Shown here: positions 8,754 through 55,049 of the stretch, one piece after another
Numbering within the stretch: the first letter of the stretch is position 1
How the letters are laid out: each line of letters begins with the position of its first letter
Assembly (NCBI GenBank): GCA_021825585.1
Contig: JAKAGT010000012.1
Span: 62,001 to 126,000 of the forward strand
Source: Bacteroidota bacterium
GTDB lineage: Bacteria; Bacteroidota; Ignavibacteria; Kryptoniales; JAKASW01
Length of the DNA stretch: 64,000 bases
Reading direction: 5' to 3'
Translations under genes and position numbers: made by a program
The notes under the pieces: generated by a model
Databases searched by the model: none
What the model was told of the DNA's origin: nothing
The model's input: only the letters and a program-made list of their open reading frames with translations

Positions 8754-10865
8754 TTACTTCAAGAGCACCATTTTCATCGTTCTATCGAAATTCTTCGCAC
8801 TTATTCTGTAGAAGTACACGCCGCTTGCTACCTGCTCGCCCACGTTGTTCCTTGCATCCCACGTTACCTGATAGGTGCCGGGCACATAATTATCGCTCGC
8901 CAGCACTTTCACAAGCTGTCCGATGGAATTGTAAACAGATACATTGACCATTCCCGTCTTCGGTACCGAGAAGTTAATAGTCGTCGTCGGGTTGAACGGG
9001 TTCGGATAGTTCTGCTCAATGGCGTACGTCGTGGGGACCTTGTTGCTGACCACTTTCACACCTGTAACGATGCCAAGGGCTCTTTGCAGAAGAGCGAAAG
9101 TATATTTCGCGTTGTGAACTCCATAGCTGCCGTCTTTCAGTACCAGCCGGTAATCCCAATAAGCGCCGAGCTGATTCTGCGTAAGGGCCTTGGCTCCGCT
9201 GGTGCTGATCGTGCCGCTGACAAGCGAATCCGGCAGCGCGGCAGCCAGCTTTGCGAGGAGAGCCTCGACTTCTGTCTGGACACCCGGGATCGGTCCGCCG
9301 TTCGCGATGCCTGCATAGTCATACGGGGCGGGAATCTGATCGAAATCGGTGATCGGGCCGTGGCAGGACTGACACACGGTGGTGTTGTCCGTAGTGTCTC
9401 CAAGGGCATCCGGGCCGCTCATCTTCCATGTGTGGCCGCCGAGCGTCGTTGCAGCATTCGCGTCAAGAGTATCTGTGGACATGTGGCACGTCACGCATGC
9501 GTCCGAAAGCTGGGTATGCGTGGTCAGCCCGGTGATTGAGCTGTCACCGAACGTGTAACCGTCTTGTCCAAAGAACATGTCTGTCTGTGGACCGTTATGA
9601 GGCCCGAAATATTTCTTATACCCTGCCGCAACCGCAGAGTTCACAGAAGTTCTTGATCTGTGGCAGTTCATGCAGAGCTGACCTACTCCGCCGCCCGGGA
9701 TTACGAAGCCATTTGCCAGAGGCGCAGCCGAAACCTTCCTCAACTGATAAGGATTCGTGGCATCGTGCGGATTGTGACATCCGGTGCAAGTCAAGGGAAT
9801 TCCAGCATAGGAAGATTGTGAAAGTTGGCCGTTGCTTGCATAGTCCGCAAAACCAGCGCCGTTGTGACACTGAGCGCAAGAGGATGAGTTCGGAGTCGGA
9901 GCATCTTCGACCTGGATAGCAGTCATTCCGCTGTCGTGCGGGCTGCTCGTCCACTCTCTTCCTATCGCATGGTGAGGCGGTGCGTCATGGCACTGCATAC
10001 ACACTGAAGCGTTCAACGATACGGAAATCTTTGAGGGGTCTCCCCAGTGCTCGCTTCCCGGACCGTGGCAGCTTTCGCAGCCGATGGTCCCCAGTTGCGC
10101 AAGCTGAGCGGAGGTGTGATAAAGGTGAGCAAAGTTTGAGTCGGCGAGAGGTGGTGCCGGGAAGGTCCAGCCGACTTGGTTTGCGACTGCCGCGAAGTTT
10201 CCGTTCGCCGCGCCTGGGTTGTATCCGGTCGTATGGCACTTGATGCAGTAACCTGCATATGCATTCCCCGCAGGGTTGTGCCCGTTGAGACTCTCCTTAA
10301 AGAAGGAAGCATGCGCAGTATTCATCCAGTGTGAATAATCCGCAGTCGGGTCGAGACCTAATCCAGTCAACGCTCCCTGGTGACAGACGCCGCATTGCGG
10401 GACCGTAGCCGTCGCGCTGTCGTTCGTCACTATTCCCATAGAGCCGACCCCGACATAATCTGCAGAGGTTATCACGGTCGAAGCCTGCGAAGTCCCCCCA
10501 GCGGTCGTGATCTGAAGATTAATCGTATACTCGCCAGTCGTATCGACTGTGATCGTCGTAAATGGAGCGGATGCGCTGTCTATAGCCGCATGTCCACCAA
10601 CCGGATCAACAACCGACCAAACCACTGACTGAATTGGATTCCCAGTAGAATCGATAGCCTGAAGAAAAACTCTGGTCTTCTCCCCGACGGTCTTCAAGCC
10701 CGTTGTCGCATACATCGCATTCCCAGCCGCTCCATATTGCTGAGTCAAAGTATAGGGTGTCATCCCCACTACCTGAATGCCAGCCTTCGGTGCTGCTGTT
10801 TGTGAGTAAGCCAATCCAGCTGCGAGGAATACAATCACAAACATGGTAGAAATTTGTTTCCTCAT
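8754..10865 (-). CDS. Nine-heme c-type cytochrome with T9SS type A sorting domain
   Basis: 703 residues with a signal peptide (about 1-21, ending LAYSQ), placed by GGAG upstream of ATG 10865. An Ig-like N-terminal region (about 25-150) precedes nine CxxCH heme sites: CGVCH, CIKCH, CESCH, CMQCH, CAQCH, CTGCH, CMNCH, CVTCH and CQSCH. Additional His-rich segments (DAPPHHAIGR) could supply distal ligands. The last ~90 residues are a T9SS type A/FlgD-like sorting domain (QNYPNPFNPTTTINFSVPK ... GVYFYRIS). The protein should cross the inner membrane via Sec, receive hemes in the periplasm and be exported to or anchored on the cell surface. Electron transfer is the obvious role; the redox partner is unknown. 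It is a clear paralogue of the next gene. Confidence 0.93.
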   Translation of the reverse strand: MRKQISTMFVIVFLAAGLAYSQTAAPKAGIQVVGMTPYTLTQQYGAAGNAMYATTGLKTVGEKTRVFLQAIDSTGNPIQSVVWSVVDPVGGHAAIDSASAPFTTITVDTTGEYTINLQITTAGGTSQASTVITSADYVGVGSMGIVTNDSATATVPQCGVCHQGALTGLGLDPTADYSHWMNTAHASFFKESLNGHNPAGNAYAGYCIKCHTTGYNPGAANGNFAAVANQVGWTFPAPPLADSNFAHLYHTSAQLAQLGTIGCESCHGPGSEHWGDPSKISVSLNASVCMQCHDAPPHHAIGREWTSSPHDSGMTAIQVEDAPTPNSSSCAQCHNGAGFADYASNGQLSQSSYAGIPLTCTGCHNPHDATNPYQLRKVSAAPLANGFVIPGGGVGQLCMNCHRSRTSVNSAVAAGYKKYFGPHNGPQTDMFFGQDGYTFGDSSITGLTTHTQLSDACVTCHMSTDTLDANAATTLGGHTWKMSGPDALGDTTDNTTVCQSCHGPITDFDQIPAPYDYAGIANGGPIPGVQTEVEALLAKLAAALPDSLVSGTISTSGAKALTQNQLGAYWDYRLVLKDGSYGVHNAKYTFALLQRALGIVTGVKVVSNKVPTTYAIEQNYPNPFNPTTTINFSVPKTGMVNVSVYNSIGQLVKVLASDNYVPGTYQVTWDARNNVGEQVASGVYFYRISAKNFDRTMKMVLLK

Positions 10866-11231
10866 AGCTAATTCTCCTTTTCTAGTGCTTTTGGCGTGAA
10901 ACAGAAAACCCTTGAATAGATTTCCTATCTGTATCTACAACTCGAATGCCAATCACCACCACCAAAACCCTTCGAAATTTCCGGAAACAAGCCATTTGTG
11001 ACTCTTCCGGAAGTATTCGTCAAGAAAAAAGGTCCATCCTCCTCCCAGTCCGAGGGCATTTTGGGACACCATTACCAACAACTTCTGCAAGTAATCAAGA
11101 TTCCTTGGACCATGAAATAAGGAAAGACCACGCCCAATTCAGAGCCGTATCGTGACAAAGGGAGAGACAATGAGCTGTTAACATGCCGTTGCAGGCGATG
11201 TAGGATTGCACCGCCTGCAACAACCCCGGAT
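10866..11231. other. Intergenic region between the two nonaheme cytochrome genes
   Basis: No convincing gene is present. The end near 10865 holds the GGAG ribosome site and presumably the promoter of the downstream cytochrome gene. The end near 11231 holds a hairpin. The length suggests the second cytochrome has its own promoter rather than being a strict operon partner. Confidence 0.6.
11188..11221 (-). terminator. Hairpin downstream of the 678-residue cytochrome gene
   Basis: A perfect 10-bp inverted repeat (GTTGCAGGCG / CGCCTGCAAC) with a 14-nt loop lies 10 bp after the stop codon. No T-tract follows it on the minus strand, so it may be a 3'-end stabilizer or a weak terminator. Confidence 0.5.
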
Positions 11232-13268
11232 TTACTTCATCAACATCATTTTTCGGACTTGAGCAAAGTCCCTGGTCACTAACTTGCAGAAGTAGACCCC
11301 GCTCGAAACCATCATACCGGAAGAGTTCTTTCCGTCCCACGTTACTTTGTACGTACCTGGCGCGAAGTAGCTGTCCGCCAGAGAGGCAACTTCCTGGCCA
11401 ACAGAATTATATATGATCAGCTTCACGATCCCTGATTTCGGTACGGAGAAGTTTATCGTTGTGGTGGGGTTAAACGGATTCGGGTAATTCTGGTCGAGGG
11501 CGTAAGCACGAGGAATCTTGTTTGTAACAACTTCGACCCCGGTTAGAGTGCTCAGCGCACGCGTCAGAACCGCAAACGTGTACTTCGCATTATGGACACC
11601 GTAGCTTCCGTCATTCGCGACGAAATAATAATCATAAACGGCTCTCAGATAGTTTGGTTTCCCCGCAATCGAAGCTGAATCCGTGGCGACTGCCCCCGTG
11701 GCATCCTTCGGTAACATGGCCGCCAGTTTTGCGAGCAACCCTTTCACTTCTGTCTGCACACCTTCCGTCTTCCCGTTGCCGTCGTAATCGTCCGCTGCCT
11801 GGATGTCGTCAAAGCTTGCTATCGGGCCGTGGCAGCTCTGACATACTGCAACGTTATCAACAATATTCTTCCCTGTGCTGTCTGGGCTGCTCATGTTCCA
11901 CGTGTGACCGCCGAGAAGATTAACCATATTCCCCGCTGCCGTAGACATGTGGCACGTAACGCAGGCGTCTTCCAACTGCGTATGAGTTGAATTTCCTGTT
12001 ATAGAGTTGTCGCCGAACTGATACGCATTTTGTCCGAAGAACATGTCGGTTTGGGTGCCGTAGTGTGGACCGTAGTGACTCGCCCATTTCAGCGTGTAGG
12101 CATTCGCATTCCTTCGGCCCTTGTGACAATTCATACAGAGCTGTCCGAGACCGCCACTGGCTATCTTATATCCGTTCATCAGACTGTCTGCAGTGACCTT
12201 CCGCAGCTGGTGTGGGTTCTGGTCAGAGTGCGGATCGTGGCACGATGCGCAACCTATAGACATCGTCGCCTGAGCTCCGGAGATTGTCTGCGAGGAGGCG
12301 GACAAATAGAAACCTGTGCCGTTATGACACTTTGCACAGGAGGCGTTGTTCACTCCCGGATATTCTACCTGTACAAGATTCTTTCCATGACTGCTTGTTG
12401 CATACTGCCTGACGACCATATGGTGCGTTGGTGCGTCGTGACACTTAGCACAGACTTTGACGTCCATAGATATGCTAATCCGGTTGCTTCCCAACTGACC
12501 GTTGTGCTCGCTTCCCGGCCCGTGGCAGTTCTCGCATCCGATTGTGGCAAGCTGTGCGAGCTGATGCGAAACATTGTTAAGATGTGTGAAATTTGTGTCG
12601 ACATATGCCGACGGGAAAGTCCAGCCGGACTGAGCCTGGACGTCGTCGAATCCACCATTGTTCGCATTCAAATCGTATCCGGTTGTGTGGCAAGTGACAC
12701 ATCTTGATGAGTAGTGTGTCTGCCTCGGATCAGTTCCGTTGATTGCATTCTGGAACATGACTGCATGGGGCGTCTCCACCCAATCCTGGACCATCGGAAG
12801 GTGACAGAGCCCGCACTTCGGGTCCTGGATCGAAGCTCCTCCTCCTCCCATGAAGCCCACCCCCTGATAGTAAGCCGATGTAATTGTGTCCGAAACGGAC
12901 GAGGTCCCACCTGAGGTGGTGATGCTCAGCCGCACGACGTATTGTCCGTTCGTATCCACTTTCATTGTCGTGAATGGGACATTGGTGCTGTCGATGGTTG
13001 TCGTTGATCCCGTTGGTTTGTTCAGCAACGACCACGTGACAGCGGTGATCTGTCCGCCACTTAAATCCGCCGCTGACAAGTAAACAACCGAGCCTTTACC
13101 GACTGTCCGCAATCCCGATGTCGTCGTCCTTGTCCCCTGAGATCCATAAACCTTTGAGAACTGATACGAAGACATGCCAACCACCTCGATCTTGGGAATT
13201 GGCGTCTGCGAAATCGCGGCACCTGCGGTTAATAAGGCCATGGTGAAGAAGGTAAAGAATTTACCCAT
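11232..13268 (-). CDS. Nine-heme c-type cytochrome with T9SS type A sorting domain (paralogue)
   Basis: 678 residues with signal peptide (about 1-20, AGAAISQ) and a GGGAG ribosome site before ATG 13268. The layout matches the neighbouring cytochrome: an Ig-like N-terminal region, then nine CxxCH sites (CGLCH, CVTCH, CENCH, CAKCH, CAKCH, CASCH, CMNCH, CVTCH, CQSCH), then the QNYPNPFNPTTTINFSVPK sorting domain. The blocks ATIGCE.CHGPGSEH and QLCMNCH are shared almost unchanged. The two genes arose by tandem duplication but have diverged well beyond a recent copy. The predicted location is the outer surface, with a role in extracellular or outer-membrane electron transfer. Confidence 0.93.
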   Translation of the reverse strand: MGKFFTFFTMALLTAGAAISQTPIPKIEVVGMSSYQFSKVYGSQGTRTTTSGLRTVGKGSVVYLSAADLSGGQITAVTWSLLNKPTGSTTTIDSTNVPFTTMKVDTNGQYVVRLSITTSGGTSSVSDTITSAYYQGVGFMGGGGASIQDPKCGLCHLPMVQDWVETPHAVMFQNAINGTDPRQTHYSSRCVTCHTTGYDLNANNGGFDDVQAQSGWTFPSAYVDTNFTHLNNVSHQLAQLATIGCENCHGPGSEHNGQLGSNRISISMDVKVCAKCHDAPTHHMVVRQYATSSHGKNLVQVEYPGVNNASCAKCHNGTGFYLSASSQTISGAQATMSIGCASCHDPHSDQNPHQLRKVTADSLMNGYKIASGGLGQLCMNCHKGRRNANAYTLKWASHYGPHYGTQTDMFFGQNAYQFGDNSITGNSTHTQLEDACVTCHMSTAAGNMVNLLGGHTWNMSSPDSTGKNIVDNVAVCQSCHGPIASFDDIQAADDYDGNGKTEGVQTEVKGLLAKLAAMLPKDATGAVATDSASIAGKPNYLRAVYDYYFVANDGSYGVHNAKYTFAVLTRALSTLTGVEVVTNKIPRAYALDQNYPNPFNPTTTINFSVPKSGIVKLIIYNSVGQEVASLADSYFAPGTYKVTWDGKNSSGMMVSSGVYFCKLVTRDFAQVRKMMLMK

Positions 13269-20298: not shown

Positions 20299-21411
20299 TC
20301 AGCCGATCGGGATGGCTATCGTGAACTTCGTCCCTTTTCCAGGTACAGATTCCACGAAGACTCTGCCGCCGTGGGCTTCGACGACCCGCTTTACTATAGT
20401 CAGCCCGAGCCCTGTTCCCTTCTCCCTGTGCGGCCCGCCGGTTTGCGCCTGTCTGTACCTGTCGAAAATATGCGGAAGCTCCTCGGCAGGCATCCCGATA
20501 CCGGTGTCTTCTACATCCATTGCCGCATAATTTCCATTCAACATCGGAAGTTCGCCGTCGAAATGTTTTACATATGTTCGTACGGTCACCCTTCCGTTCT
20601 TCGGCGTAAATTTAATTGCGTTGCTCAACAGATTTGTGACAGCCTGGTCGATCTTATCGTTGTCAAACTCGCAATTCGGAATGTTTGCGTCTTCATCCAC
20701 TATCAGCTCCAAACCTTTTTCACGTGCAAGCATCTTCAAACGGCCGACAGCGCCTTCCACTACGACATTGAAGTCCCCGGGCTGCTTGCTCAGCTGTACT
20801 TTTCCCGCCTCGAACTTTGCAACGTCCAGGATATCATTTATCAAACCGAGCATTTTATGGGCATTCTTCAGCGCGGTCGCCAGTAAATCCTTCACTTCTT
20901 GAGAGTGGTTATCGAACTCCCCCTTTTCTCCCAACTCGAGTACACCTATGACCACCGACAGCGGACTTCGGAGGTCGTGAACCAGCATCGACTGAAAATC
21001 GGCCTTCAACTGTTCTACCCTGCGTTCCGCCTTGGAAATCCGCAGGATGGAATTGACCCTTGCAATAAGCTCATCCTGCTCGATCGGCTTGGTCAAATAT
21101 TCGTCGGCGCCGAGAGCAAAGCCCTGTTCTATGCTCTTTGCGTCTTTGGAATTCGCGGTAAGAAATATCACGGGGATATCTCTGGTTATCTCGTTCTGGC
21201 GCAGGTGCTTCAGCGTTTCAAAACCATCCATGTCAGGCATCGCGACGTCGAGAATAATAAGATCGGGATGCAGCATGGCGCTTTGCGTCAGGCACTCGGT
21301 CCCGCTGGACGCGGTTACAACGTCAAACCCACGTCGCTTCAATAACCTGTCCAGCAGAATCAGATTGTCCACAGCGTCGTCCACGGCTAGGATTCTTTGT
21401 CGCTCTTCCAT
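20299..21411 (-). CDS. Receiver-histidine kinase hybrid (REC-HisKA-HATPase)
   Basis: 370 residues. The N-terminal receiver domain has an acidic pocket in LAVDDAVDN, phospho-acceptor Asp in LIILDVAMPDMDG and a Lys in YLTKPIEQDE. A HisKA domain follows with His145 in MLVHDLRSPLSVVIG, and an HATPase domain with LLSNAIKFTPKNG, DTGIGMP and GTGLGLTIVKR. There is no membrane or PAS sensor, so its input is probably phosphotransfer to the receiver. Its start overlaps by 25 bp the end of the 1647-residue kinase gene upstream, arguing that the two form one phosphorelay. Confidence 0.93.
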   Translation of the reverse strand: MEERQRILAVDDAVDNLILLDRLLKRRGFDVVTASSGTECLTQSAMLHPDLIILDVAMPDMDGFETLKHLRQNEITRDIPVIFLTANSKDAKSIEQGFALGADEYLTKPIEQDELIARVNSILRISKAERRVEQLKADFQSMLVHDLRSPLSVVIGVLELGEKGEFDNHSQEVKDLLATALKNAHKMLGLINDILDVAKFEAGKVQLSKQPGDFNVVVEGAVGRLKMLAREKGLELIVDEDANIPNCEFDNDKIDQAVTNLLSNAIKFTPKNGRVTVRTYVKHFDGELPMLNGNYAAMDVEDTGIGMPAEELPHIFDRYRQAQTGGPHREKGTGLGLTIVKRVVEAHGGRVFVESVPGKGTKFTIAIPIG

Positions 21412-24400
21412 TTCCTTCTCTGAATGAATTTGTTAACCTCGCGCAGGATGGCCTCTCTCGTCAACCCTTCCTTGCGGACAATGTCCTTAGCATTCGACGT
21501 CAGAGCTGCACGCTCCTCATCTGTCACTTCCTTCGCAGTCAGGACTACGATGGGAATGTCCCTCATTTTCTCGTCACCGTACATCTGCTCAACGACGTCG
21601 AATCCGTCCGTGCCGGGCATCAGCAGGTCAAGGAAGACAAGTGATGGCGCCGTCCTGCGAAGGAGGTTCATGGCCTCAGCCCCGTTTTGCGCCGTGAGAA
21701 TTTTGAACCTGCTCTTCTCAAGGAGATTCTGGAGGAACGCGGTAAACTCCACGTTGTCATCGACTACGAGTATCTCTCCGCCGGCTGTACCGGTGTACTT
21801 CCGTACCACGGAGACTATTCTCTCGGCCTCTACGGGCTTAACGAGATAAGACTCTGCTCCGAGTGAAATCGCAAGAGCCTTATTATCCACGACGGAATGA
21901 ATGATGACGGGGATGTTCTTCAATTCTTCGTCTGATTTCAGTTCCTGCAGTATCTGCCACCCGTCTTTCCTGGACATCATAATGTCAAGTATGACAAGAA
22001 TCGGCCTGTAGCTCCTGATCGTGCCGATAGCCTCCTGGGAATCGCTCACCCCCAGGAATTCAAAGCCCTCTGCTACCAGGTAGTTTTTCAGAAGCAGGAG
22101 TACTTCCCGGTCGTCATCGACACATATCACCAGGTTGTTCGACCCGGGTGACATGGCAGGCAACGGCGGGGCCGGAATTTCCAACCGCACCTTTTCATCT
22201 TCAACCGGTCGATAGACTCTCGGGAGTGTCAATATGAATGTAGATCCCTCGCCTATCACGCTCTGGACTGCCAGATCGCCGCCGAGCAACTTGGCCAGCC
22301 TGCGTGATATCGTGAGTCCGAGTCCGGTTCCCCCGTGCTTTCGCGTGTTCGATCCGTCTACCTGTCTGAACTCCTCAAAGACAACCCTTGTATAATCCGA
22401 CGGGATCCCTGGCCCGGTATCTTCGACGGCCACGGACACGGCATTCCCGTCGGGGGTTTTTGCAGTAACTCTGATCTGGCCGGCGTCGGTGAATTTCGCG
22501 GCGTTGCTCAGCAGATTTAGAACTATTTGTTTTATCCGCGCCGGATCGGAGAATACACCCGGCATGTCCGGTTCGATTTCCATTGTCAGCCTTACCGGCT
22601 TGTCGGACAACAACGGTTCGATGGTGGCAATCGCGTCCTTCAAGACATCGCCTATCTCGAACACTTCCGGAGTGATCGTGAGTTTCCCGGCCTCGATCTT
22701 CGACAAATCGAGAACATCACTTATCAAGGCGAGAAGGTTCTTCGCGTTGCGAAGGACGATCTCAAGTCCCTCTTTCTGCTCTTCAGTAGGCGGCTGAACA
22801 TCGTCTGTCAGGATCAGGTTCGTGAATCCGATTATGGAATTAAGTGGGGTCCGAAGTTCGTGACTCATATTTGCGAGGAATTGACTCTTGAGCCTGCTCG
22901 CCTCTTCAAGCTGCTGGTTCACAAGGACCAGTTGCGCATTCGCTTCTTCAACCCATATCTTCGACATTCGGAGCTGTTCGTTGTAATCTTCAAGCTTCTG
23001 TGATTTATCGAAAATATCGGCGTATAAATAGGCGTTCTCAAGCGCTGCCCCAACCACACGGGAAACCATCAGGAAGAATTCCTTATCTGTTTCGACCAGC
23101 TCGACCTTCTCCCTGGATGCAACCAGCAGAAGCCCCTGCAGCTCCTTTCTTCCGATAATGGGAACGATAACCAACGAATGCATGAGCTCCTGACGCAAAG
23201 CCTTGAAGAGATCCGGTTGTTGGGCAGCCCGGGAAATCTCGGAAACCAGGACAGGTTCTCCGCGGACTATTGCCTCGGCAAAAACTCCTTCGCCCGGCGC
23301 AAGAATCCTCACCCTATTGTCTTCCGCGAACGACGAACTGAAACCGAGCGAAGCGGACAAGACTAGTTGCGCCGACTCACGGGCAGAAAGGTATATCGCA
23401 GCAGAGGCGACGTCATCGTAGTCCATCAGGATGGCAAGACTCTTGTTCAAGATCTCGACCACATCGAGTGCGTCTTTGACCGCCAGCGCCGTCCTGTTGA
23501 TTACAGAAAGCCTTCTGTTCTGTTTCCTGATGGCGGATTCGCCCTTCTTCTGCTCAGTCACGTCCCTGTTAATGAACACTCTTCCGGTAGGACCGCCGTC
23601 GGAGCTTCTGACCAGCGCTATCGAAGAGTCGATATATAGCCGGCGTCCGTCTTTCGAGTAGTTAACGGCCTCACCCCGCCACAGGCCCTTGTTTCCCAGC
23701 TCAATCCGCATCCCTTCAGGCGATATTTTGCTGAAGCCGAACGGGATAACGTTCTCAAGAGGCAATCCGAGAACTTCGTCTTCCTTCCAGCCATACAACC
23801 TCTCCGCAGCCGGATTCCATGACGTGATCGTACCATCCTGGTCCGAAGCAATTATCGCATCGTTCACTTCTCCGAGCAGCATGGCCTGATAGGCAATCCT
23901 CTCCTCGCTCAATTTCCTCTCGGTGATGTCGGTGAATATGGCGACAGCTCCGTTGGAATCTCCGCTCGCTTCCAGGAGAGGCGCGGAGCTTATGGAAAGG
24001 ATCCTGTCTTTCCCATGGCGAGTAATTGTAAACTCAAAGTTGTGGACGCTCTTTCCTTCCATCGCCGACAGCTTTATCGGATTCTCTTCGTCCGGGAGCC
24101 GTGTGCCATCCAGCTTCCTCATGTTGAGCGCTTCTGCGTACTCTTCAAACCCAACCCCGAGAATCTCCCTTATACCGAAGATTTCTTTACCCCCTTCGTT
24201 CATCAGAAGTATTCTTCCCTGCTTGTCTACAAGGGCTATTCCTTCAGCGGCACTTGAGAAAATCTTCTCAAGCTGATCGGACTGGCTGGTAATCCTCGCT
24301 GCCAGGTTCAGTCTCTGCATGCCGGCCGCCAGCTCGGAAGCCGCTACATCGACCATTTCCACCTCGTATTTCAGGTTACCCGAAGGCGCAACGGACACGT

Positions 24401-26330
24401 ACTGCAGCACTCCGACAGCCTGCCCCGAACTGACAAGCGGGATGCTCACCAGCCCCTTTGCACCCCTGAAAGCAGGCTTGTCTTTCAAGTCCGCATACTC
24501 CGTTGCGGACAGCGATTCTGAGAGTGCGGGCCTGAGCGTATTCACGGCCCGCAGGGCATCGGATTCAAGTTCAAGTCTTCGGTGAAGGGGGACCACATTT
24601 TCCCCATCTCCCAAATTGGAATGAGCTATAACCTCGAGCGTCCTCATCTCTTCTTCATAAACATGCAATACAATCAGCGGAGCATTGATAGTCTCTGAAA
24701 GCAAATCTACCGCAGACCGGGCCAGGTCGCTGATCTTACCGCTGGTAATTGCGAGTTGGGCCATCCTGTAACCGCACTCTTTTCTCTTTTCCTCCCATTT
24801 CTTCTCGGTTATGTCTTCGCAAATGCCGACGAGTGCGATTACGCTTCCTTCCGAATCTTTGATGGAGCTCGCATTGAGATATATATAATAATCGGTGCCG
24901 TCTTTCCGCCGGTTCAGGACTTCGCCTTTCCAAATCCCGTTGTGCATGGTCTGGATATAGATATCACGCGCATTCGTATAGCCGAAGGCCGGCGACACGA
25001 GCCCCCAGAGGTTGCCGCCCGGCAGATCGTTCAGCGTGTAACCGAAGAGCTGTTCGGCGGCTGAATTCATGAATGTGATATAACCCTGTGGGTCGGTCAG
25101 GGTTATCGCCTGACCGGTGTTTTCGACGGCTGCGCTCAGCACCTTGTTGCGGTGCTCCAGCTCGGTCCTCCTCGTAATGTCGCGGAAAATCGTTATCCTT
25201 CCCCTTCTCTTGCCTTCGATTACAATCCGCGTAGAATTGAGCAAGGTTTCCTTCTTCTGTCCGCGTTTCGTCAGCACCCGCAGCTGGTACTCATTCTTCA
25301 CCCCCTGGTCCACCTGCCGGCCATACTCCTCAACTCTTTCCCGATCAGCAGGATCGTAGAGCTCGAGGAAATGCCTCCCTTTCATATCGGACAGACCGTA
25401 GCCGAAATCTTTCTCAAAGGCGGGGTTGACATATACCGTCAATCCGTTCTCATCCACAATCCTCACCGGATCGGGGACCTCCTCGAGATACTGCTGGTAT
25501 TTTTGCAGTTCCTCATTTGCTTTCTTCAGGTTCGCAGAACTGTGTACATACTCGCCGAATATCTCACCCACATCCACAAGGCTTCCTAATGCGCCGACTG
25601 CATAAGCCACCAGTGTCAACCCGATGCGGCTTGCCGATGGCGCATCGGTGAGCGTCACGGAAAAGGAGCCGATGAATTCTGCAGCGGCGAGGAGGAATAA
25701 CGTAATCGTTATGGTATAATTGAAGAGCGTCGGATTGGTCAGATAGTTTCGGCCGGTCCCCACGAACGAGATGACAAACAAGCCCGAAGCTATCAAGGCG
25801 AGCGAATGGGAACTGAGTGCCAGAATCGTACCGCCGTTCTGAACTCCGCCTCGCAGCGTTAAGACGAGTAAAGACACGAGGACGGCCGCAATTACGACGC
25901 CGACTAATACATCCACAACGCTGGAATCCTGCCCGGGATGGAGCCACACAATCAAAGTACCAACGGCCAGTATGATGCCGAGCAAGAGCCGCCCTCCCTC
26001 CCATGCCAGGAGCTGGAAAGCAAAAGCCTGTTCCGCTACGCCGAAAATCCCTATATCCGATACAACGATGCCTGCAATTCTAATGAACCCACCGACGAGA
26101 AACGCGAACGCGACAAATTGAAGAAGCCTCTCCCTGTGCACGATGAAGCGCGAGAAGGCAAAAAGGGATATCGCCACCGAAATCATGTTTGTAATGAACA
26201 CAGAATCGATGAACAGCCCTGAAGTCACCGTAGCATGGAGGGCACGTGCAAGCAACAGAACGATGACGACAAACGACCCAGCCCCGGCTACACCAAGGCT
26301 TAAGGAAAGGAGACGTTTACTTTTTTCCAA
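21387..26330 (-). CDS. Giant membrane hybrid histidine kinase (7TM-like/PAS/GAF/HisKA/HATPase/REC-REC)
   Basis: 1647 residues. About eight hydrophobic helices form an N-terminal membrane sensor (residues ~10-260). Next come PAS domains near 285-395 and 405-520, a GAF domain ~530-690, PAS domains ~700-815 and 820-940, a second GAF ~960-1105 and a coiled coil. The HisKA domain has His1157 in NMSHELRTPLNSIIGF and the HATPase has LLSNAAKFTD, DTGPGIP and GTGLGLTISRR. Two receivers end the protein, with VCVDDD/LDIMM/LVKP and LVVDDN/LDLLMPG; the second lacks the usual KP lysine context (IVRKEGL). It likely integrates several redox or small-molecule inputs. The receiver-kinase at 20299 is the probable downstream partner. 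Confidence 0.93.
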   Translation of the reverse strand: MEKSKRLLSLSLGVAGAGSFVVIVLLLARALHATVTSGLFIDSVFITNMISVAISLFAFSRFIVHRERLLQFVAFAFLVGGFIRIAGIVVSDIGIFGVAEQAFAFQLLAWEGGRLLLGIILAVGTLIVWLHPGQDSSVVDVLVGVVIAAVLVSLLVLTLRGGVQNGGTILALSSHSLALIASGLFVISFVGTGRNYLTNPTLFNYTITITLFLLAAAEFIGSFSVTLTDAPSASRIGLTLVAYAVGALGSLVDVGEIFGEYVHSSANLKKANEELQKYQQYLEEVPDPVRIVDENGLTVYVNPAFEKDFGYGLSDMKGRHFLELYDPADRERVEEYGRQVDQGVKNEYQLRVLTKRGQKKETLLNSTRIVIEGKRRGRITIFRDITRRTELEHRNKVLSAAVENTGQAITLTDPQGYITFMNSAAEQLFGYTLNDLPGGNLWGLVSPAFGYTNARDIYIQTMHNGIWKGEVLNRRKDGTDYYIYLNASSIKDSEGSVIALVGICEDITEKKWEEKRKECGYRMAQLAITSGKISDLARSAVDLLSETINAPLIVLHVYEEEMRTLEVIAHSNLGDGENVVPLHRRLELESDALRAVNTLRPALSESLSATEYADLKDKPAFRGAKGLVSIPLVSSGQAVGVLQYVSVAPSGNLKYEVEMVDVAASELAAGMQRLNLAARITSQSDQLEKIFSSAAEGIALVDKQGRILLMNEGGKEIFGIREILGVGFEEYAEALNMRKLDGTRLPDEENPIKLSAMEGKSVHNFEFTITRHGKDRILSISSAPLLEASGDSNGAVAIFTDITERKLSEERIAYQAMLLGEVNDAIIASDQDGTITSWNPAAERLYGWKEDEVLGLPLENVIPFGFSKISPEGMRIELGNKGLWRGEAVNYSKDGRRLYIDSSIALVRSSDGGPTGRVFINRDVTEQKKGESAIRKQNRRLSVINRTALAVKDALDVVEILNKSLAILMDYDDVASAAIYLSARESAQLVLSASLGFSSSFAEDNRVRILAPGEGVFAEAIVRGEPVLVSEISRAAQQPDLFKALRQELMHSLVIVPIIGRKELQGLLLVASREKVELVETDKEFFLMVSRVVGAALENAYLYADIFDKSQKLEDYNEQLRMSKIWVEEANAQLVLVNQQLEEASRLKSQFLANMSHELRTPLNSIIGFTNLILTDDVQPPTEEQKEGLEIVLRNAKNLLALISDVLDLSKIEAGKLTITPEVFEIGDVLKDAIATIEPLLSDKPVRLTMEIEPDMPGVFSDPARIKQIVLNLLSNAAKFTDAGQIRVTAKTPDGNAVSVAVEDTGPGIPSDYTRVVFEEFRQVDGSNTRKHGGTGLGLTISRRLAKLLGGDLAVQSVIGEGSTFILTLPRVYRPVEDEKVRLEIPAPPLPAMSPGSNNLVICVDDDREVLLLLKNYLVAEGFEFLGVSDSQEAIGTIRSYRPILVILDIMMSRKDGWQILQELKSDEELKNIPVIIHSVVDNKALAISLGAESYLVKPVEAERIVSVVRKYTGTAGGEILVVDDNVEFTAFLQNLLEKSRFKILTAQNGAEAMNLLRRTAPSLVFLDLLMPGTDGFDVVEQMYGDEKMRDIPIVVLTAKEVTDEERAALTSNAKDIVRKEGLTREAILREVNKFIQRRKWKSDKES

Positions 26331-44168: not shown

Positions 44169-45227
44169 TTAAAAACCCAGATTTAATGAAAACCTATGAA
44201 CATCACCAAGCCGCTGATACGGGGTGAAGGAGTAGTCGAAGGAGACGAGCGCGAATTTCATGTCCGACCTGACTCCGGCCCCGAGTGAATAGCTCTGTTC
44301 CTGGACGTTTATCTTGTAGCCGGCCCTGAGGAAAAACATGGAGCTGTACGAATATTCTGCCCCCACTGCCAGATTCTCCGAGTTGTCCGCAGGGTGGTTG
44401 AGCTGCAATGCAGTTGTCAACCTGTTGGCATTGTCCTGGTACGGCTCAAATGCAAATCCGATCCTGAAAATCGTCGGCGGTGAAAAGCCCTGGAAACTCG
44501 AGACGGTCGTCCCGTCCACGAGATCAACCGAACCGGAGGGCGCCATCTGCCCGCCAAAATTGCTCACGGACACGGCAAACCTGGTGGATCCGATTCCGGT
44601 CCAGTAGTACGTCCCGAGGTCGACGAGGACACCGTGCATCGAGAGGTCTGCGAGCGTCTCGTCTACATATTTGACGGACACGCCGAAGCTGAATCTGTCG
44701 GTCATCTTCCGGGCATATGTGGCGGCAACTGCAAGGTCTCCGTATTTGAAATAAGCGCCGGTGCCGTAAGGCTGGAATTCGGTCGTTACCGGCATATCGT
44801 CCGACCGAAGTGATATCACGGAGATGCCCACGCTGCTCTGTCCATCCAGATGATACACGCCGCCGATGAAATCGTGCTGAAGGCCGACAAACCAGGTTGA
44901 ATGAGAGACGCCGATCTCGTTCTTGTCAAACTCGGAGATTCCTGCCGGATTATAAAACAAGGCGTACACGTCGTTCGCAACGGCGGCGAAACTCTCGGCC
45001 ATCGCACTTGCGCGGGCGCCGACGCCGATCTTCAGGAACTCCGCGGTTGTTATTCCGACCCGCTGTGAGCCGAGAACCGGGAGCAGCTGCGCGCGGGCGG
45101 GAACGCCCGGTAACATGAGGACGAGAGTCAGAAATGGAATGATGGAATAATAAACACGTGACACAGCGTTGCGCACCCTCCCTTTGTTCTCACTCTTTGT
45201 GCTTTGCTCTATGCTCCTCGTTCTCAT
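44169..45227 (-). CDS. PorV/PorQ-family outer-membrane beta-barrel
   Basis: 352 residues from ATG 45227, which overlaps the TGA of the TonB-type receptor gene. A signal peptide (to about ARAQ) precedes KIGVGARASAMAESFAAVAN and ALFYNPAGISEF, the hallmark opening of PorV/PorQ-like barrels (FadL-like fold). The C-terminus ends in Phe (LNLGF). In T9SS organisms PorV is the shuttle that carries sorting-domain cargo to the attachment complex. Its position next to sorting-domain proteins fits that role, but paralogues with other functions are common. Confidence 0.88.
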   Translation of the reverse strand: MRTRSIEQSTKSENKGRVRNAVSRVYYSIIPFLTLVLMLPGVPARAQLLPVLGSQRVGITTAEFLKIGVGARASAMAESFAAVANDVYALFYNPAGISEFDKNEIGVSHSTWFVGLQHDFIGGVYHLDGQSSVGISVISLRSDDMPVTTEFQPYGTGAYFKYGDLAVAATYARKMTDRFSFGVSVKYVDETLADLSMHGVLVDLGTYYWTGIGSTRFAVSVSNFGGQMAPSGSVDLVDGTTVSSFQGFSPPTIFRIGFAFEPYQDNANRLTTALQLNHPADNSENLAVGAEYSYSSMFFLRAGYKINVQEQSYSLGAGVRSDMKFALVSFDYSFTPYQRLGDVHRFSLNLGF

Positions 45228-48190
45228 AGCTTCACCGATATGCCTACTTTTATATTTCGAGGCGTCAGATACCTGGATTGGTCGAACGGATACGGATCTA
45301 TCGGTGCGGTCAATTCCGGATAGAGCGGGTTGTTCCAAGTGGACGGGGTGGGATCTCCAAGCTCATATGCTCGGCCGGTGACAGGATTAATGATGTCGGA
45401 ATTCATGTTATTGAAGACGTTCTCGACCTCGACCATCAGCGTCATTTCGACTCCTGCAAGAGTCATATATTTTTCAAAATTGAAATCCATCCAGAACCAG
45501 TTCGAAGCCAGCTTGCTGTACTGGTTGTTCAGATCGGGAGCATACAAAGGCTCGCCGTTCGATGCGTATGTGCCGGTGAAGTAATAGGGAGTGTATCTCT
45601 TTCCGGATTCGAAGAATATCCTGAAGTATGCCTGGAAATCGTCGAGGACTCCCTTTCCGAATCCGAAGACCCCGTTTTGCCGGGAGTTATAGAATGAAAG
45701 ATTCGCGGAGAGCTGAACCGGCCTGTCCCACGACAGGAATGTTTCGTTCATCATCTCCTGCATTATTCCCTGAACGGCCAGGATTCCCTCGTCTTCGGAG
45801 CTCGACTTGCCGGTCGCAACAGAATAAGAACCGCTGATCACGCCGTTGAACCACTGCCCTATTCTCTTTCTATATTCGATTTCGATTCCTCTCGTTCGCG
45901 CGTAATCCGAATTTACATAGGTGATGAAGTTCTGCCCGATCAGTCCTGCAGAATAGATCTGAGCCTGCTTTGTCTGGACATAATCGAATATGTCTTTGTA
46001 GTAAGCGGTAACGGTAAGGACATCGTCGTTCGTAAACTGGTTTCGGAGACCGAGCTCATAGCTGACCGTAGTTTCCGGATTGAGGTTAGGATTACCGAAC
46101 GCCTGGTATGTCGACATTGCCGTGCTCGGGGTCAGCTTCGCATAGACGAACTGCGGCCTCGGCCATTTGGAAAAGTGCCCGTAGTTGAGAAACAGGGTCT
46201 GGTTGTCTGAAATGGGGTGCGATATGCCGAGACGCGGGCTGATCCGACCCTTCCACCGCCTTCCGAAAAAGTCGTAGGTATCGCCGAGATATTTGTCCCG
46301 GATTGTCTGTGGAATGGTAATCACCCGCGGATTTTTTACCGCGTCGTCCACATACTTCCCCGGAAACCAGTAATCGAAACGGAGGCCGAAGTTCAGGATC
46401 ATTCCGTTTGTCGTTATAGTCTCCTGAGAATATGCTGAACCGGCTGCGGGAAACACCTTATAAATGTCGTTGTTCAGGCCCATTACGCCGACCCACGGCT
46501 CGTATATGTCGACCAGCTGCATCTCCTGGAAGTTCATATCGAACCCGGCTTTGAATTTATTCTTCTCCGTAAAGAAGGACGTAATATCGAACTTCAGCTC
46601 ATTGTTGATGAAGTAGTGGTCGTGCCAGGTGTAAGCATTGCCGAAGTCGTAAAACCCGTCCCCCGGAATGATGCCGATCGTATCCCGGTTCGTATTGTAG
46701 TATGTGGGCGGGAGCGTAACTACATCGATCGGCTGCTGATACTGCGTCCAGTAGAGTCCGTTCGCGTCCGCTCTCAGCTGCGTAAAGAAATGCGCGAACT
46801 TCAGATCGTAATATGTCTTCGGGCTCAGCGTATGCGTGATGTCTATCGCCTGCATGATGCTGTTGTGAGTGTAGACATCTGCGCTTCCGAGTATATTCTG
46901 AAACTGGTACTGATAACCCGGAGTCGGCTCGACATACTCGAGGTTTGTCTGCAGAGATTGAGTGTTCTGATTTATGCTGACGCTCTGGTTGTACGAATAA
47001 CTGATTTTGAACGTCTGGCTCGGCTTGTAGGTAATCTTCCCGAGGCCGTACCAGTTATTTGCCAGGCGCGGGGCGAACCTCGTACCGTAGAATATCGAGG
47101 AATTGAGCCTTGAGGGGGGATCGATCATGAACCTGATGGCCTGGCCGCCCTGATACCGCTCTGCCCAGAGTACCTGCCCGTCGCTGAATCCGGCCGCAAA
47201 GCTCCCGAACAGAAGGACTTCGCCGGGGATCCTGATGCCGATAGCGGGGAGAATATATTTCGTTATGGGTTCTGGACCGCCGAAGTTCGCCTGATAATAG
47301 TCCGAGTTGAAATTGGAAAGAGAATTCCTGTTGAGCCCCCAGTGGTCGGTCTTGTATTGCAGGAACAAATCGTATTTATTCCCGCCTTCCCTGGTTCTCA
47401 CGTTCACGATCCCGCTCGTAGCCTGACCGTACTCGGCGTTGAAGCCTCCGGTAATCACTTCCATTTCGCTCAGCGAGTTCGCGCTTAGCTGAAGGCCGAA
47501 ACCTGTTCCGGCGAGGGGATCCTGGATGGAGACGCCGTCGAGGAGGTATGCGTTCTCGTACGAACGGCCGCCGCGAATGTGAATTTCGTTGTCGGACGCC
47601 ACGACGCCGACCTGCTGTGAAACCACCTCCTTCACATTCTCGACCGCGGATATTCTGATCTCATTCGAGGAAATCGTCCTCGTGCTTTGCGTCTCCGCGA
47701 CATCCATCATCGGCTTCTCGCCTATAACCACAACCTCCTGGCCGAGCGAGAGGGCGGTCTCCTCGAGTGTAGCGTTTACGGCAACCGTTTCACCTTCGCC
47801 TACTCTCACATTAGTGTGTTCCACTTCCTTGTATCCGAGAAGCCTGAAGGAAAGAGTGTATATGCCCGGCGACACACTCTTGATTTCATAACTCCCGTCC
47901 ATGCCGGTCGTTGCGCCGTAGTAGGTCCCCTTTATAAGAACGTTCACTCCGACGAGGCCCTCCTTCGTCGCGGTGTCCGTTACCTTGCCGTGTATGCCGC
48001 CGCGCTGCTGCGCAAACGCAGGAAAAGACGAGAGATCCGAACAACAAGCCCCAAACAAGAACAGAATTCCAACCAGCGAAAACGGGAAAAGCCGACGACC
48101 ATTAAGAGTTTTCTTCTTGATGATTGGTCCTTGTCTGTCCGAAGGATCCCCTTCGGGGGAGCCTGAGTCCTGGCATTTATAATTTATCAT
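45224..48190 (-). CDS. TonB-dependent receptor with carboxypeptidase-regulatory-like domain
   Basis: 988 residues. After a signal peptide (about 1-60; the long N-terminus makes the exact start uncertain) there is a CarboxypepD_reg-like domain (GGIHGKVTDTATKEGLVGVN). A plug domain follows (IHIRGGRSYENAYLLDGVSI, EVITGGFNAEYGQATSGIVN), then a 22-strand-type barrel ending KVGISVKL. It imports a ligand too large for porins, powered by TonB. No SusD partner is adjacent, so it is not a standard polysaccharide locus. It starts at the stop of the upstream lipoprotein. Confidence 0.9.
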   Translation of the reverse strand: MINYKCQDSGSPEGDPSDRQGPIIKKKTLNGRRLFPFSLVGILFLFGACCSDLSSFPAFAQQRGGIHGKVTDTATKEGLVGVNVLIKGTYYGATTGMDGSYEIKSVSPGIYTLSFRLLGYKEVEHTNVRVGEGETVAVNATLEETALSLGQEVVVIGEKPMMDVAETQSTRTISSNEIRISAVENVKEVVSQQVGVVASDNEIHIRGGRSYENAYLLDGVSIQDPLAGTGFGLQLSANSLSEMEVITGGFNAEYGQATSGIVNVRTREGGNKYDLFLQYKTDHWGLNRNSLSNFNSDYYQANFGGPEPITKYILPAIGIRIPGEVLLFGSFAAGFSDGQVLWAERYQGGQAIRFMIDPPSRLNSSIFYGTRFAPRLANNWYGLGKITYKPSQTFKISYSYNQSVSINQNTQSLQTNLEYVEPTPGYQYQFQNILGSADVYTHNSIMQAIDITHTLSPKTYYDLKFAHFFTQLRADANGLYWTQYQQPIDVVTLPPTYYNTNRDTIGIIPGDGFYDFGNAYTWHDHYFINNELKFDITSFFTEKNKFKAGFDMNFQEMQLVDIYEPWVGVMGLNNDIYKVFPAAGSAYSQETITTNGMILNFGLRFDYWFPGKYVDDAVKNPRVITIPQTIRDKYLGDTYDFFGRRWKGRISPRLGISHPISDNQTLFLNYGHFSKWPRPQFVYAKLTPSTAMSTYQAFGNPNLNPETTVSYELGLRNQFTNDDVLTVTAYYKDIFDYVQTKQAQIYSAGLIGQNFITYVNSDYARTRGIEIEYRKRIGQWFNGVISGSYSVATGKSSSEDEGILAVQGIMQEMMNETFLSWDRPVQLSANLSFYNSRQNGVFGFGKGVLDDFQAYFRIFFESGKRYTPYYFTGTYASNGEPLYAPDLNNQYSKLASNWFWMDFNFEKYMTLAGVEMTLMVEVENVFNNMNSDIINPVTGRAYELGDPTPSTWNNPLYPELTAPIDPYPFDQSRYLTPRNIKVGISVKL

Positions 48191-49962
48191 CAGAACGCTC
48201 CGAAGTCCTTGAATACTCTGTAAATCAGCTGCGACGCCCTGGCATTCGAAGACGGAGGCGTGTCGTTCCCGTTGAACCTGTACAGTGGTACGCCGAGAAG
48301 GAACAGCGACCTATCGCCGCTCAGGAGACCAAGGACGGGCGGCAGGTTGCCGGGGCCGTACGAACCGAATGGTTCGACACGATAGATGACCGTCGCGTCC
48401 AGACTCGGGTATACGCCGCGGAGGTTCCACACGGCCTTTCCTCCGTCGGTCGGATTAGAAGCAGAGCCGTCCCGCATTAGAACCGGATATTCGGTTGAAT
48501 CAAAAGGAATCACAGATGTTCCGGAAAAGACGAATCCGGTCGAAGTTACAGGGCGGCTCGCAGAAGAAGCGCCCCTGATGATATCGGCCATGACGCTGTC
48601 GACCGAGCCAGTGAAGTCGCGCAGCTGCTGGTTCAGTGCGCCGCGATCGGCCGTTGTGTCGACAGCATAGTAACTGAATAATATCTTGCCGCCAGCGCTT
48701 CTGAATCCCGGGATAGCCGTCTGCGCGATATCAAAGTCCTTATAATCGGCCGAATACCAGAAGATATACTTGTAGAGTTTGAGTGTTTCCTGGAACGACG
48801 GGACGACGCAGGGCTGCACCAAATTCCCCTTCTTCGGGCTCGTGGGAGTCATTCCGGCCCTTATATCCCACACGTCATACTTCCCTTTCAGCGAGCCGCC
48901 GTTGATATTATCGAAAATGGTTTTGTAGAAGGGCAGCGACTGGTCCTGTGACCCATAATCGTTGACGATCAAGATGTTGCCTTTGGGCTTCTTCACATAC
49001 CAGGTGTGAGTACTGTCGGGCATTCGAATCGCCGGGCTGTATGCGTCGGCCACATCCTTAGCCTTCACGTAGAAGACATTGTTTCCGTTCAGCTTCAGGT
49101 TCGGGAGCGTCACCTTCATCGGAGAATATGCCATTGCCGGATAGGTGTTCGCATAGATGTCGCACGATACGGTGGATGTATCGGACTGCGCTTCGTAGTT
49201 CCTCCCTTCAATCGTAACGAAGCGGGCCTGTGCAGGAAGATCGACCCAGCTTGAAGGGGAGAGAGTATCGTTAAGCGCGATAAGGTAATCAGTGATTGTG
49301 TTGTCTCCGTCGATGTCGGAGCCCTGCCAGCCGAACGATGCGACGGTGAACGTTGTATCCGGTATATCGCTCCTCGTCGAGAACTGGCCGCCGTTCATGA
49401 CGAAGATTACCTGCGGCGGCGTATTGGCAATCGGGTATTTAATCGAGGCGGGATCCGGGTCGACGGCATCACCCAGAGCAGGAAAAGGCTCGCCTGTATC
49501 CCATCTCCCGTTGCCGTTCATATCGGTAAACACGGCTGTATCCCCTTCGAGCAGCCTGCCCTTGAAGCTGTTGTCGATAGCGGCAACCAGGAGTGTGTAT
49601 GACGTGTCTCTGCTGAACAGCGGAAGTGCAAAGACGCTGTCGGTCTTCGATGTGATCGTCCACGTCTTTCGGTCAAAGGTAATGATGTAGCCGACTACCA
49701 GGCCGTCGGCATCGTTCGCCCACCAATGCACCTCGAGGCGGCTCGATTGCGGGTTGAAGTTCCCGGCCTGAGCCGAATCGCGGAAAGGATACGCCGAGAC
49801 AAAAGTCTTCGGCGGAAGATTGCCGGAGGCGGTGGAAGTGAAGTGCTTTGTGCAGCCGGAAAGGGAGAGGAGAAGGAATGCCGCGCAAAGCGGGATGCCG
49901 CACAGCTTACGATAACTGCGACTCACTTTCGGAGTGAGTCGCAGTTCGATCAACCTATTCAT
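48190..49962 (-). CDS. Large lipoprotein with Ig/FnIII-like repeats; start supplied by mobile element
   Basis: Up to 590 residues from ATG 49962. The lipobox is LLSLSGCTKH. The mature part has beta-rich segments (EVHWWANDADGLVVGYIITF; FGWQGSDIDGDNTITDYLIA) like fibronectin III/Ig modules, then a mixed C-terminal half. Residues about 6-17 (ELRLTPKVSRSY) are encoded by the left palindrome of the RAYT element. The ATG also lies within the transposase C-terminal frame. The native start may have been replaced on insertion; a GTG within the palindrome is an alternative. Function unknown; probably a surface partner of the following receptor. Confidence 0.75.
   Translation of the reverse strand: MNRLIELRLTPKVSRSYRKLCGIPLCAAFLLLSLSGCTKHFTSTASGNLPPKTFVSAYPFRDSAQAGNFNPQSSRLEVHWWANDADGLVVGYIITFDRKTWTITSKTDSVFALPLFSRDTSYTLLVAAIDNSFKGRLLEGDTAVFTDMNGNGRWDTGEPFPALGDAVDPDPASIKYPIANTPPQVIFVMNGGQFSTRSDIPDTTFTVASFGWQGSDIDGDNTITDYLIALNDTLSPSSWVDLPAQARFVTIEGRNYEAQSDTSTVSCDIYANTYPAMAYSPMKVTLPNLKLNGNNVFYVKAKDVADAYSPAIRMPDSTHTWYVKKPKGNILIVNDYGSQDQSLPFYKTIFDNINGGSLKGKYDVWDIRAGMTPTSPKKGNLVQPCVVPSFQETLKLYKYIFWYSADYKDFDIAQTAIPGFRSAGGKILFSYYAVDTTADRGALNQQLRDFTGSVDSVMADIIRGASSASRPVTSTGFVFSGTSVIPFDSTEYPVLMRDGSASNPTDGGKAVWNLRGVYPSLDATVIYRVEPFGSYGPGNLPPVLGLLSGDRSLFLLGVPLYRFNGNDTPPSSNARASQLIYRVFKDFGAF
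49914..49946. repeat. Left REP-like palindrome
   Basis: A 14-bp inverted repeat (AACTGCGACTCACT / AGTGAGTCGCAGTT) with loop TTCGG. Nearly identical to the copy at 50545-50577; together they bracket the RAYT transposase gene. Confidence 0.9.
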
Positions 49963-50536
49963 CTAGAAAATACTCTTTCAGTTTCTCATCCTGGTTTGCA
50001 GTAGCCACGTAACTGTAGACAAATTCCTCGTATCCTGCGGGTGAGCCAAAGAAATCCGCAATGAACTCCGGATCGAAGCTTCACCGTTTCCTCTTGCCCA
50101 CACACTCCAAATAGTTTGAGTAAGCCCATTGTCCGGGGATTGGCACTAATTTCGCGGAAACGGGGTTCGTATGGATATACCGGCAGAGGTGGCTTAGGTA
50201 CTCATCTTTGTCGACCCTCTTCGCCTTAAACGGAGACTCGAACAACGTCCCTGATCTGCCGTACCGCTTATTCAAAGCCTTCGTGTAACTATTGAACACT
50301 CGCTGTGCCAAGAGGCCGGCTGGATTAGGGCCCGCTTGATGAAGCAAAAAATGGTAATGATTAGGCATCAAACACGACGCGACTACCTTCACTGCCAATT
50401 CTTGCGAATAGAGAGCCACTTTTCGCAATACAAATTCATAATTATCCTGCGTGATGAATATGCCCTGCCTTCCTACACCACGGTTATAAACGTGGTAAAA
50501 CGATCCCTCGGTGAAATTAACGGTTCTTCTGGCCAT
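49955..50536 (-). pseudogene. RAYT (Y1/IS200-like) transposase gene interrupted by an in-frame TGA
   Basis: From ATG 50536 (MARRTVNF) the frame runs 151 residues to TGA 50081-50083 and continues in the same frame to TAG at 49955. HUH/Y1 transposase features: SFYHVYNRGV, the HxH metal motif in MPNHYHFLL, a candidate catalytic Tyr in VFNSYTKALNKRYG, SGTLFESPFKAKRV and LCRYIHTNPV. After the TGA, DPEFIADFFGSPAGYEEFV and a C-terminal EKLKEYFLDE complete the usual RAYT C-terminus. The stop removes about 43 residues; the product is either truncated or inactive. RAYTs mobilize REP sequences as single-stranded DNA. Confidence 0.85.
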
Positions 50537-50544
50537 TTTAGTCC

Positions 50545-50577
50545 AACTGCGACTCACCTTGGAGGTGAGTCGCAGTT
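50545..50577. repeat. Right REP-like palindrome
   Basis: A 14-bp inverted repeat (AACTGCGACTCACC / GGTGAGTCGCAGTT) with loop TTGGA, immediately upstream of the transposase start; differs from the left copy by one base per arm plus the loop. Confidence 0.9.
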
Positions 50578-50595
50578 ACCACAGGTTACCACAGG
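50576..50595. repeat. Tandem 10-bp direct repeat
   Basis: TTACCACAGG occurs twice in a row between the right palindrome and the stop codon of the next gene. It may be an insertion scar or part of the element's end. Confidence 0.6.
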
Positions 50596-52839: not shown

Positions 52840-52919
52840 TCGAGCCTCCTGTTTGGTTTTAGGTTTCGGCTTTCGGCATTCAGCCATCAGGCGACCGCTG
52901 CACGCCGATTGCCAAACCG

Positions 52920-54986: not shown

Positions 54987-55020
54987 GACACGCCTTTTCC
55001 CTGATTGCCTGAGTGATTCC

Positions 55021-55049
55021 AAAATAACGAATGCAAAAAATAATGTCAA
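55021..55049 (-). promoter_or_regulatory. Sigma-70-like promoter of the surface operon
   Basis: On the minus strand, TTGACA (55049-55044) is separated by exactly 17 bp from TATTTT (55026-55021). A start of transcription near 55014 would give a leader of roughly 28 nt before GTG 54986. FCB bacteria often use other promoter consensus, so this is a sequence match only. Confidence 0.55.

Follow-up and report, generated by a model that had tools for sequence, protein, structure and literature searches.

Two adjacent genes, here called P1 and P2, in a 64,000 nt stretch of an Ignavibacteria genome (contig JAKAGT010000012.1; hereafter the window) encode paralogous proteins in which a predicted nine-heme cytochrome core of the OcwA/NrfA type is joined to a C-terminal sorting domain of the type IX secretion system (T9SS). 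With moderate confidence, we interpret them as nonaheme terminal oxidoreductases of the cell surface, which would be exported by the T9SS as folded holo-proteins and pass electrons to external acceptors.

Architecture of the gene pair

P1 (8754..10865; 703 amino acids, aa) and P2 (11232..13268; 678 aa) are intact open reading frames (ORFs) on the reverse strand with ATG starts, and their 51% identity over the whole length identifies them as paralogues. A sequence-only reading of this DNA had placed the pair at 8754-13268, which is exact to the base, and had described nine CxxCH sites, an Ig-like N-terminus and a C-terminal sorting domain in each protein, all of which were borne out. There are exactly nine CxxCH motifs in P1 and nine in P2; shuffled versions (2000 per protein) averaged 0.013-0.021 and never contained more than one. 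All 18 cysteines of P1, and 18 of the 19 in P2, lie within heme motifs.

The sorting domain is of type A in both proteins. In P1 (8757..9029, reverse strand; QNYPNPFNP...KMVLLK) it scored above the curated cut-offs of NCBIfam TIGR04183 (33.5 bits; cut-off 23 bits) and Pfam PF18962 (30.7 bits; cut-off 27), and in P2 (11235..11507, reverse strand) it exceeded that of TIGR04183 (34.0 bits) and fell below that of PF18962 (22.8). Using Foldseek, the P2 model matched T9SS C-terminal domains (CTDs), including the translocon-bound RemA-CTD (PDB 8gl6).

Both proteins begin with a predicted Sec signal peptide, for which the cut site was judged by eye. In P1 it covers residues ~1-21 (10803..10865, reverse strand), with MRKQISTMFVIVFLAAGLAYS before the cut and Q after it, and in P2 residues ~1-20 (13209..13268, reverse strand), with MGKFFTFFTMALLTAGAAIS before the cut and again Q after it. 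The signal region of P1 has no lipobox cysteine, and the first cysteine of the protein is that of the first heme motif. The Ig/PKD-like domain follows directly (P1, 10416..10802; P2, 12834..13208; both reverse strand). By sequence it gives only a weak PKD match (Pfam, E 0.008-0.02), but in the P2 model its strands (residues 55-132) form a confident beta-sandwich with pLDDT ~90 across residues 50-130, to which PKD and Ig domains align in Foldseek; the P1 domain is the equivalent of this region. It is conserved ahead of the core in nearly all members of the family.

The pN/pS ratios (nonsynonymous over synonymous polymorphism), determined by domain against relatives of the same copy, were 0.14-0.29 for P1 and 0.17-0.31 for P2; core and tag alike are under purifying selection in both copies. 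The two genes are an old duplication that has been maintained as two lineages within the genus. That the architecture is a stray fusion or an artefact is ruled out by this selection together with its conservation in 80 members (see below). A scan for promoters and terminators around the genes gave signal at or close to the shuffled expectation.

The heme core is of the OcwA/NrfA type

The nine-heme core and its C-terminal helix bundle (P1, 9048..10415; P2, 11526..12833; both reverse strand) were assigned by sequence and profile matches. In a single-sequence search of solved structures, P2 already matched the nonaheme reductase OcwA from the cell surface of Thermincola potens (PDB 6i5b, E 1.4e-10), as well as OmhA. 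A profile of 25 sequences strengthened these matches to 5.2e-26 for OcwA and 8.1e-21 for OmhA, followed by NrfA (~5e-11) and the octaheme nitrite reductases, and the NrfA family of Pfam (PF02335) matched the P2 core at 7.8e-10. Hemes 1-9 of OcwA are collinear with all nine heme motifs and the C-terminal helix bundle. The landmarks of this alignment are a CHGPGxxH motif at heme 3, an HH pair ahead of the next conserved histidine, hemes 5-9 and the terminal DGSxGVHN helix. In the P2 model the C-terminal helices span residues 504-518, 538-553 and 561-576, and H559 of the terminal GxHN motif is kept in 33 of 34 relatives.

Ig-like domains dominated the fold search with the full-length protein, and the core was therefore modelled separately. 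The fold prediction proposed by the sequence-only reading as a check gave a mixed result: all 26 of the 26 Foldseek matches belong to the NrfA/MccA/HAO/octaheme superfamily, but each is weak (E of at least 0.22, TM <0.4), and the family assignment therefore rests on the sequence profiles. These point to a core of the OcwA/NrfA type rather than of the MtrC/OmcA kind. An MtrC-type reading was considered on account of a match to the generic model PF22113, and was rejected since this model also matches unrelated multiheme proteins, and the profile and structure matches favour OcwA/NrfA. No MtrC chains were present among the PDB profile matches, and no OmcA/MtrC family of NCBIfam matched P1 or P2.

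Heme sites and the question of a small-molecule substrate

Heme motifs 2-9 are invariant in 34 relatives, and the first motif has variable cysteine spacing. In seven members (L052, L054, L056, L066, L053, L058 and L065) it takes the form CxCH (four), CxxxCH (two) or CxxxxxCH (one), and the other eight motifs remain CxxCH; CxCH would be an unusual heme site.

In OcwA, His-His pairs lie above the open sites at hemes 2 and 5, and heme 9 is ligated by His/Met (PMC6703420; the numbering in that paper is the chain numbering plus 29). The pair over heme 2, HH281/282, aligns exactly with H282/H283 of P2, the equivalent in P1 being H298/H299, and its second histidine is kept in 32 of the 34 relatives. 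The pair over heme 5, HH380/381, aligns with an aromatic-Gly pair in P2, which is mostly aromatic-Gly across the family and is followed two residues later by an invariant histidine. By this alignment, the heme-2 site appears kept and the heme-5 site altered relative to OcwA. A further invariant histidine, at -7 from the first cysteine of heme 8, is shared with octaheme nitrite reductase and stands where OcwA has a methionine, suggesting that heme 9 is probably bis-His in this family.

These sites bear on whether P1 and P2 could instead be enzymes for small molecules such as nitrite, hydroxylamine, NO or sulfur oxyanions, acting outside the outer membrane in the manner of NrfA, HAO or MccA. The superfamily consists mainly of such enzymes, nitrite and hydroxylamine are among the substrates that OcwA reduces (PMC6703420), and the histidine of the heme-2 pocket is conserved. 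However, it is the distal His-His pair over heme 5, the equivalent of the NrfA active site, that is replaced in the family alignment, and class-wide export to the surface has no obvious reason where substrates diffuse freely. We consider this role unlikely.

Distribution and phylogeny

A scan of public genomes recovered 51 loci. Clear relatives from Bacteroidetes/Ignavibacteria assemblies account for ~37 of them, and a few lie in Verrucomicrobia and Wallbacteria. The core is present in 12 of 13 genomes of the window's genus. When the phylum was drawn evenly, 62 of 395 genomes matched (61 in the window's class and one elsewhere; 47 of 170 genera), a count in which a few are represented only by shorter NrfA-like proteins that do not carry the tag.

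The sequence-only reading had proposed a search of relatives for the same combination of many CxxCH motifs and a sorting domain, and this revealed conservation across the class. In a tree of 84 rows (77 different), the sorting domain is present in 80 of 80 rows from Bacteroidota/Ignavibacteriota, and the four untagged rows are from Verrucomicrobiota (three) and Wallbacteria (one). Two of the verrucomicrobial rows are nested within the tagged clade (support 97/93) and carry TSP3-type or other tails, which suggests transfer and a swap of the export tail. On one verrucomicrobial contig (L046:3672-8160), the gene for a nonaheme relative that lacks the tag has the same orientation as a heptaheme gene and a 653-aa barrel-like ORF, an arrangement that resembles a porin-cytochrome operon.

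Within the window's genome the tag was seen on one of 17 other multiheme ORFs. This third T9SS-tagged multiheme protein (L120:6615-8231; G000:C68, ~62.6-64.2 kb) has eight CxxCH motifs, a weak NrfA-like C-terminal match with a GVHN motif, and an uncertain N-terminus.

Gene neighbourhood and the direction of electron flow

Throughout the genus, the pair lies between pfkA and a flavin reductase gene and outside any respiratory operon; pfkA and its upstream genes are kept in relatives. In some relatives the gene does adjoin a respiratory cluster, so that the position relative to respiratory genes, raised by the sequence-only reading, differs between the genus and these relatives. In three of them (L039, L041 and L063) the next genes on its strand encode a 13-heme protein with a b561 domain, a 19-heme protein, b561 and a NapC-like hexaheme protein. 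Where the contig extends further, Rieske and cytochrome b genes and a gene for one 11-heme protein come next. Parts of the same cluster are present in L052, L059 and L064.

An alternative is that the proteins take up electrons at the surface or serve cell-to-cell contact, as in direct interspecies transfer or the oxidation of external Fe(II), with the Ig domain as a binding module. The conservation of that domain before the core would suit this, and multiheme wires are reversible in principle, but the adjoining Rieske/cytochrome b and NapC-like genes of the relatives fit outward flow equally well or better, and we regard uptake or contact as improbable.

The sequence-only reading had also proposed a route distinct from the MtrC/OmcA outer-membrane conduits. 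This holds for the way in which the protein would reach the surface, but the electrons still need a way across the outer membrane, for which candidate multiheme/barrel clusters are present in the genome. One of these (L118:3514-9179; G000:C33) encodes 30-heme and 20-heme cytochromes beside a barrel-like 549-aa ORF ending in F, and is a possible porin-cytochrome conduit. Another, of twelve kb (L116:7849-19786; G000:C24), encodes 18-, 9-, 18-, 4-, 14- and 6-heme proteins, cytochrome b561 domains and an unassigned 491-aa ORF. No Pfam or NCBIfam family matched the putative porins, including the 549-aa ORF. Porin-cytochrome complexes and growth on anodes have been reported for Ignavibacteria (PMC7399161).

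Export machinery

SprA (Sov) is encoded on the same contig as P1 and P2, and the genome also encodes two PorU proteins and PorV-family proteins at fifteen places, all above cut-off, sorting domains at 108 places, and cytochrome c assembly proteins. Of the T9SS core genes named in the sequence-only reading, Sov is thus present, but the PorM model had no match in a search run without a positive control, and the best that the PorL model gave was a weak, probably false match (E 0.02; again with no working positive control) adjoining polysaccharide-export-like genes; these searches do not prove absence. A GldL/PorL candidate at C24:8457 was dropped, as it resembles a polysaccharide-export gene. The claim of surface export is supported by the tag, the outer-membrane half of the T9SS and the class-wide architecture.

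The same reading had pointed out that the T9SS would have to move a folded holo-protein. Folded cargo would indeed be moved, but this presents no contradiction, as passage of folded cargo through the SprA barrel, which has 36 strands, is established and normal for the T9SS (PMC9251779), and a heme protein matured in the periplasm would therefore be an acceptable cargo.

That the tag does not lead to full export, the beta-sandwich being only a structural domain and the cytochrome staying in the periplasm or at the inner side of the outer membrane, is very unlikely: its FlgD-like fold does occur in non-secreted proteins too and the two motor models tried did not detect their genes, but it is kept by all 80 members from T9SS-bearing phyla in the tree, absent or swapped in relatives from other phyla and rare among the other multiheme proteins of this genome, which encodes SprA, PorU and PorV.

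A PorV-family protein, a TonB-dependent receptor and a T9SS-tagged 831-aa protein are encoded near one another at 44169-55049 of the window.

Proposed mechanism

In the surface oxidoreductase reading that we favour, P1 and P2 would be exported by Sec and their signal peptides cleaved, after which nine c-type hemes would be attached and the proteins folded in the periplasm. The folded C-terminal domain would then be recognised by PorV/SprA, the holo-protein would pass the SprA barrel and be trimmed by PorU, and it would be retained on the outer face of the outer membrane. Electrons may arrive there through the other multiheme/porin clusters of the genome and be delivered to an external acceptor such as Fe(III) minerals, humics or a partner cell, as would be consistent with OcwA and the gene neighbourhoods of the relatives. 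The simplest path would run from quinol oxidation through periplasmic multiheme proteins and a conduit to the T9SS-exported nonahemes. We infer export, heme loading, surface retention, outward flow and the acceptor from the encoded proteins and their relatives.

Several points weigh against this reading. The core fold search is weak on its own (best E 0.22), the pair is placed outside respiratory operons across the genus, and PorM and PorL were respectively unmatched and only weakly matched. The role of OcwA is itself supported in vitro and not by genetics (PMC6703420).

Comparison with known systems

P1 and P2 share with OcwA the order of nine hemes, the CHGPGxxH motif, the His-His pair over heme 2, a helix bundle ending in GSxGxHN and, by prediction, the surface role. 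They differ in that OcwA belongs to a monoderm host, has neither T9SS tag nor Ig domain, and has His-His over heme 5 and a His/Met heme 9, in place of which the P1/P2 family has aromatic-Gly and an invariant histidine (a putative ligand). OmhA of Carboxydothermus ferrireducens (PDB 6qvm) shares homology in its final seven to eight hemes and in the helix bundle, but has eleven hemes, no T9SS tag and a Gram-positive host. NrfA, octaheme nitrite reductase, MccA and HAO share the superfamily signature of the C-terminal half; unlike P1 and P2, they are periplasmic, have five or eight hemes with CxxCK or another catalytic heme, and are untagged.

MtrC and OmcA are decaheme lipoproteins that leave the cell by type II secretion and dock on MtrAB. 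They resemble P1 and P2 in a probable cell-surface function, and P1 in its match to PF22113, but P1 and P2 have no lipobox (there is no cysteine in the signal region) and their nine hemes follow a different order and do not form two pentaheme domains. With T9SS type A cargo such as RemA and the gingipains, P1 and P2 share the Sec signal, the C-terminal sorting beta-sandwich and a genome that encodes SprA, PorV and PorU; they differ in being predicted covalent multi-heme proteins. Cytochromes do not feature in a review of T9SS effectors from 2023 (PMC10202324).

Significance

No paper treating the T9SS and multiheme cytochromes together was found in the open-access literature, a search whose coverage leaves out most subscription journals and all bioRxiv preprints. 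The titles and abstracts of papers naming both type IX secretion and extracellular electron transfer suggest no link between the two, and multihemes and secretion go unmentioned in a Melioribacter multi-omics paper. In public databases, such proteins probably receive automatic names as T9SS-domain or multiheme proteins. In the literature searched, no assigned surface reductase of the OcwA-like type was found for Ignavibacteria, a group often met on anodes and in iron-reducing sediments, and P1 and P2 are candidates for this missing surface terminal reductase.

The new element is an OcwA-like reductase with the export route of the Bacteroidota, which connects the fields of T9SS and extracellular electron transfer. 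These respiratory cytochromes are probably placed on the surface by a route undescribed in the open-access literature searched. We give an even chance to the broader proposal that Ignavibacteria and their kin have an electroactive surface of their own, built from OcwA-type nonahemes moved folded and heme-loaded through the T9SS barrel. If true, it would add a third solution to those of type II-secreted MtrC/OmcA and the wall cytochromes of Gram-positive bacteria, and P1 and P2 would be the first covalent multi-heme cargo known for the T9SS. They also provide a natural way to probe the size limit of this system for folded proteins loaded with cofactors. Across phyla, the same cytochrome core carries a lineage-appropriate export tail.

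Elsewhere in the window, positions 21387-26330 encode a sensor histidine kinase of 1647 aa that contains receiver domains and numerous PAS and GAF domains.

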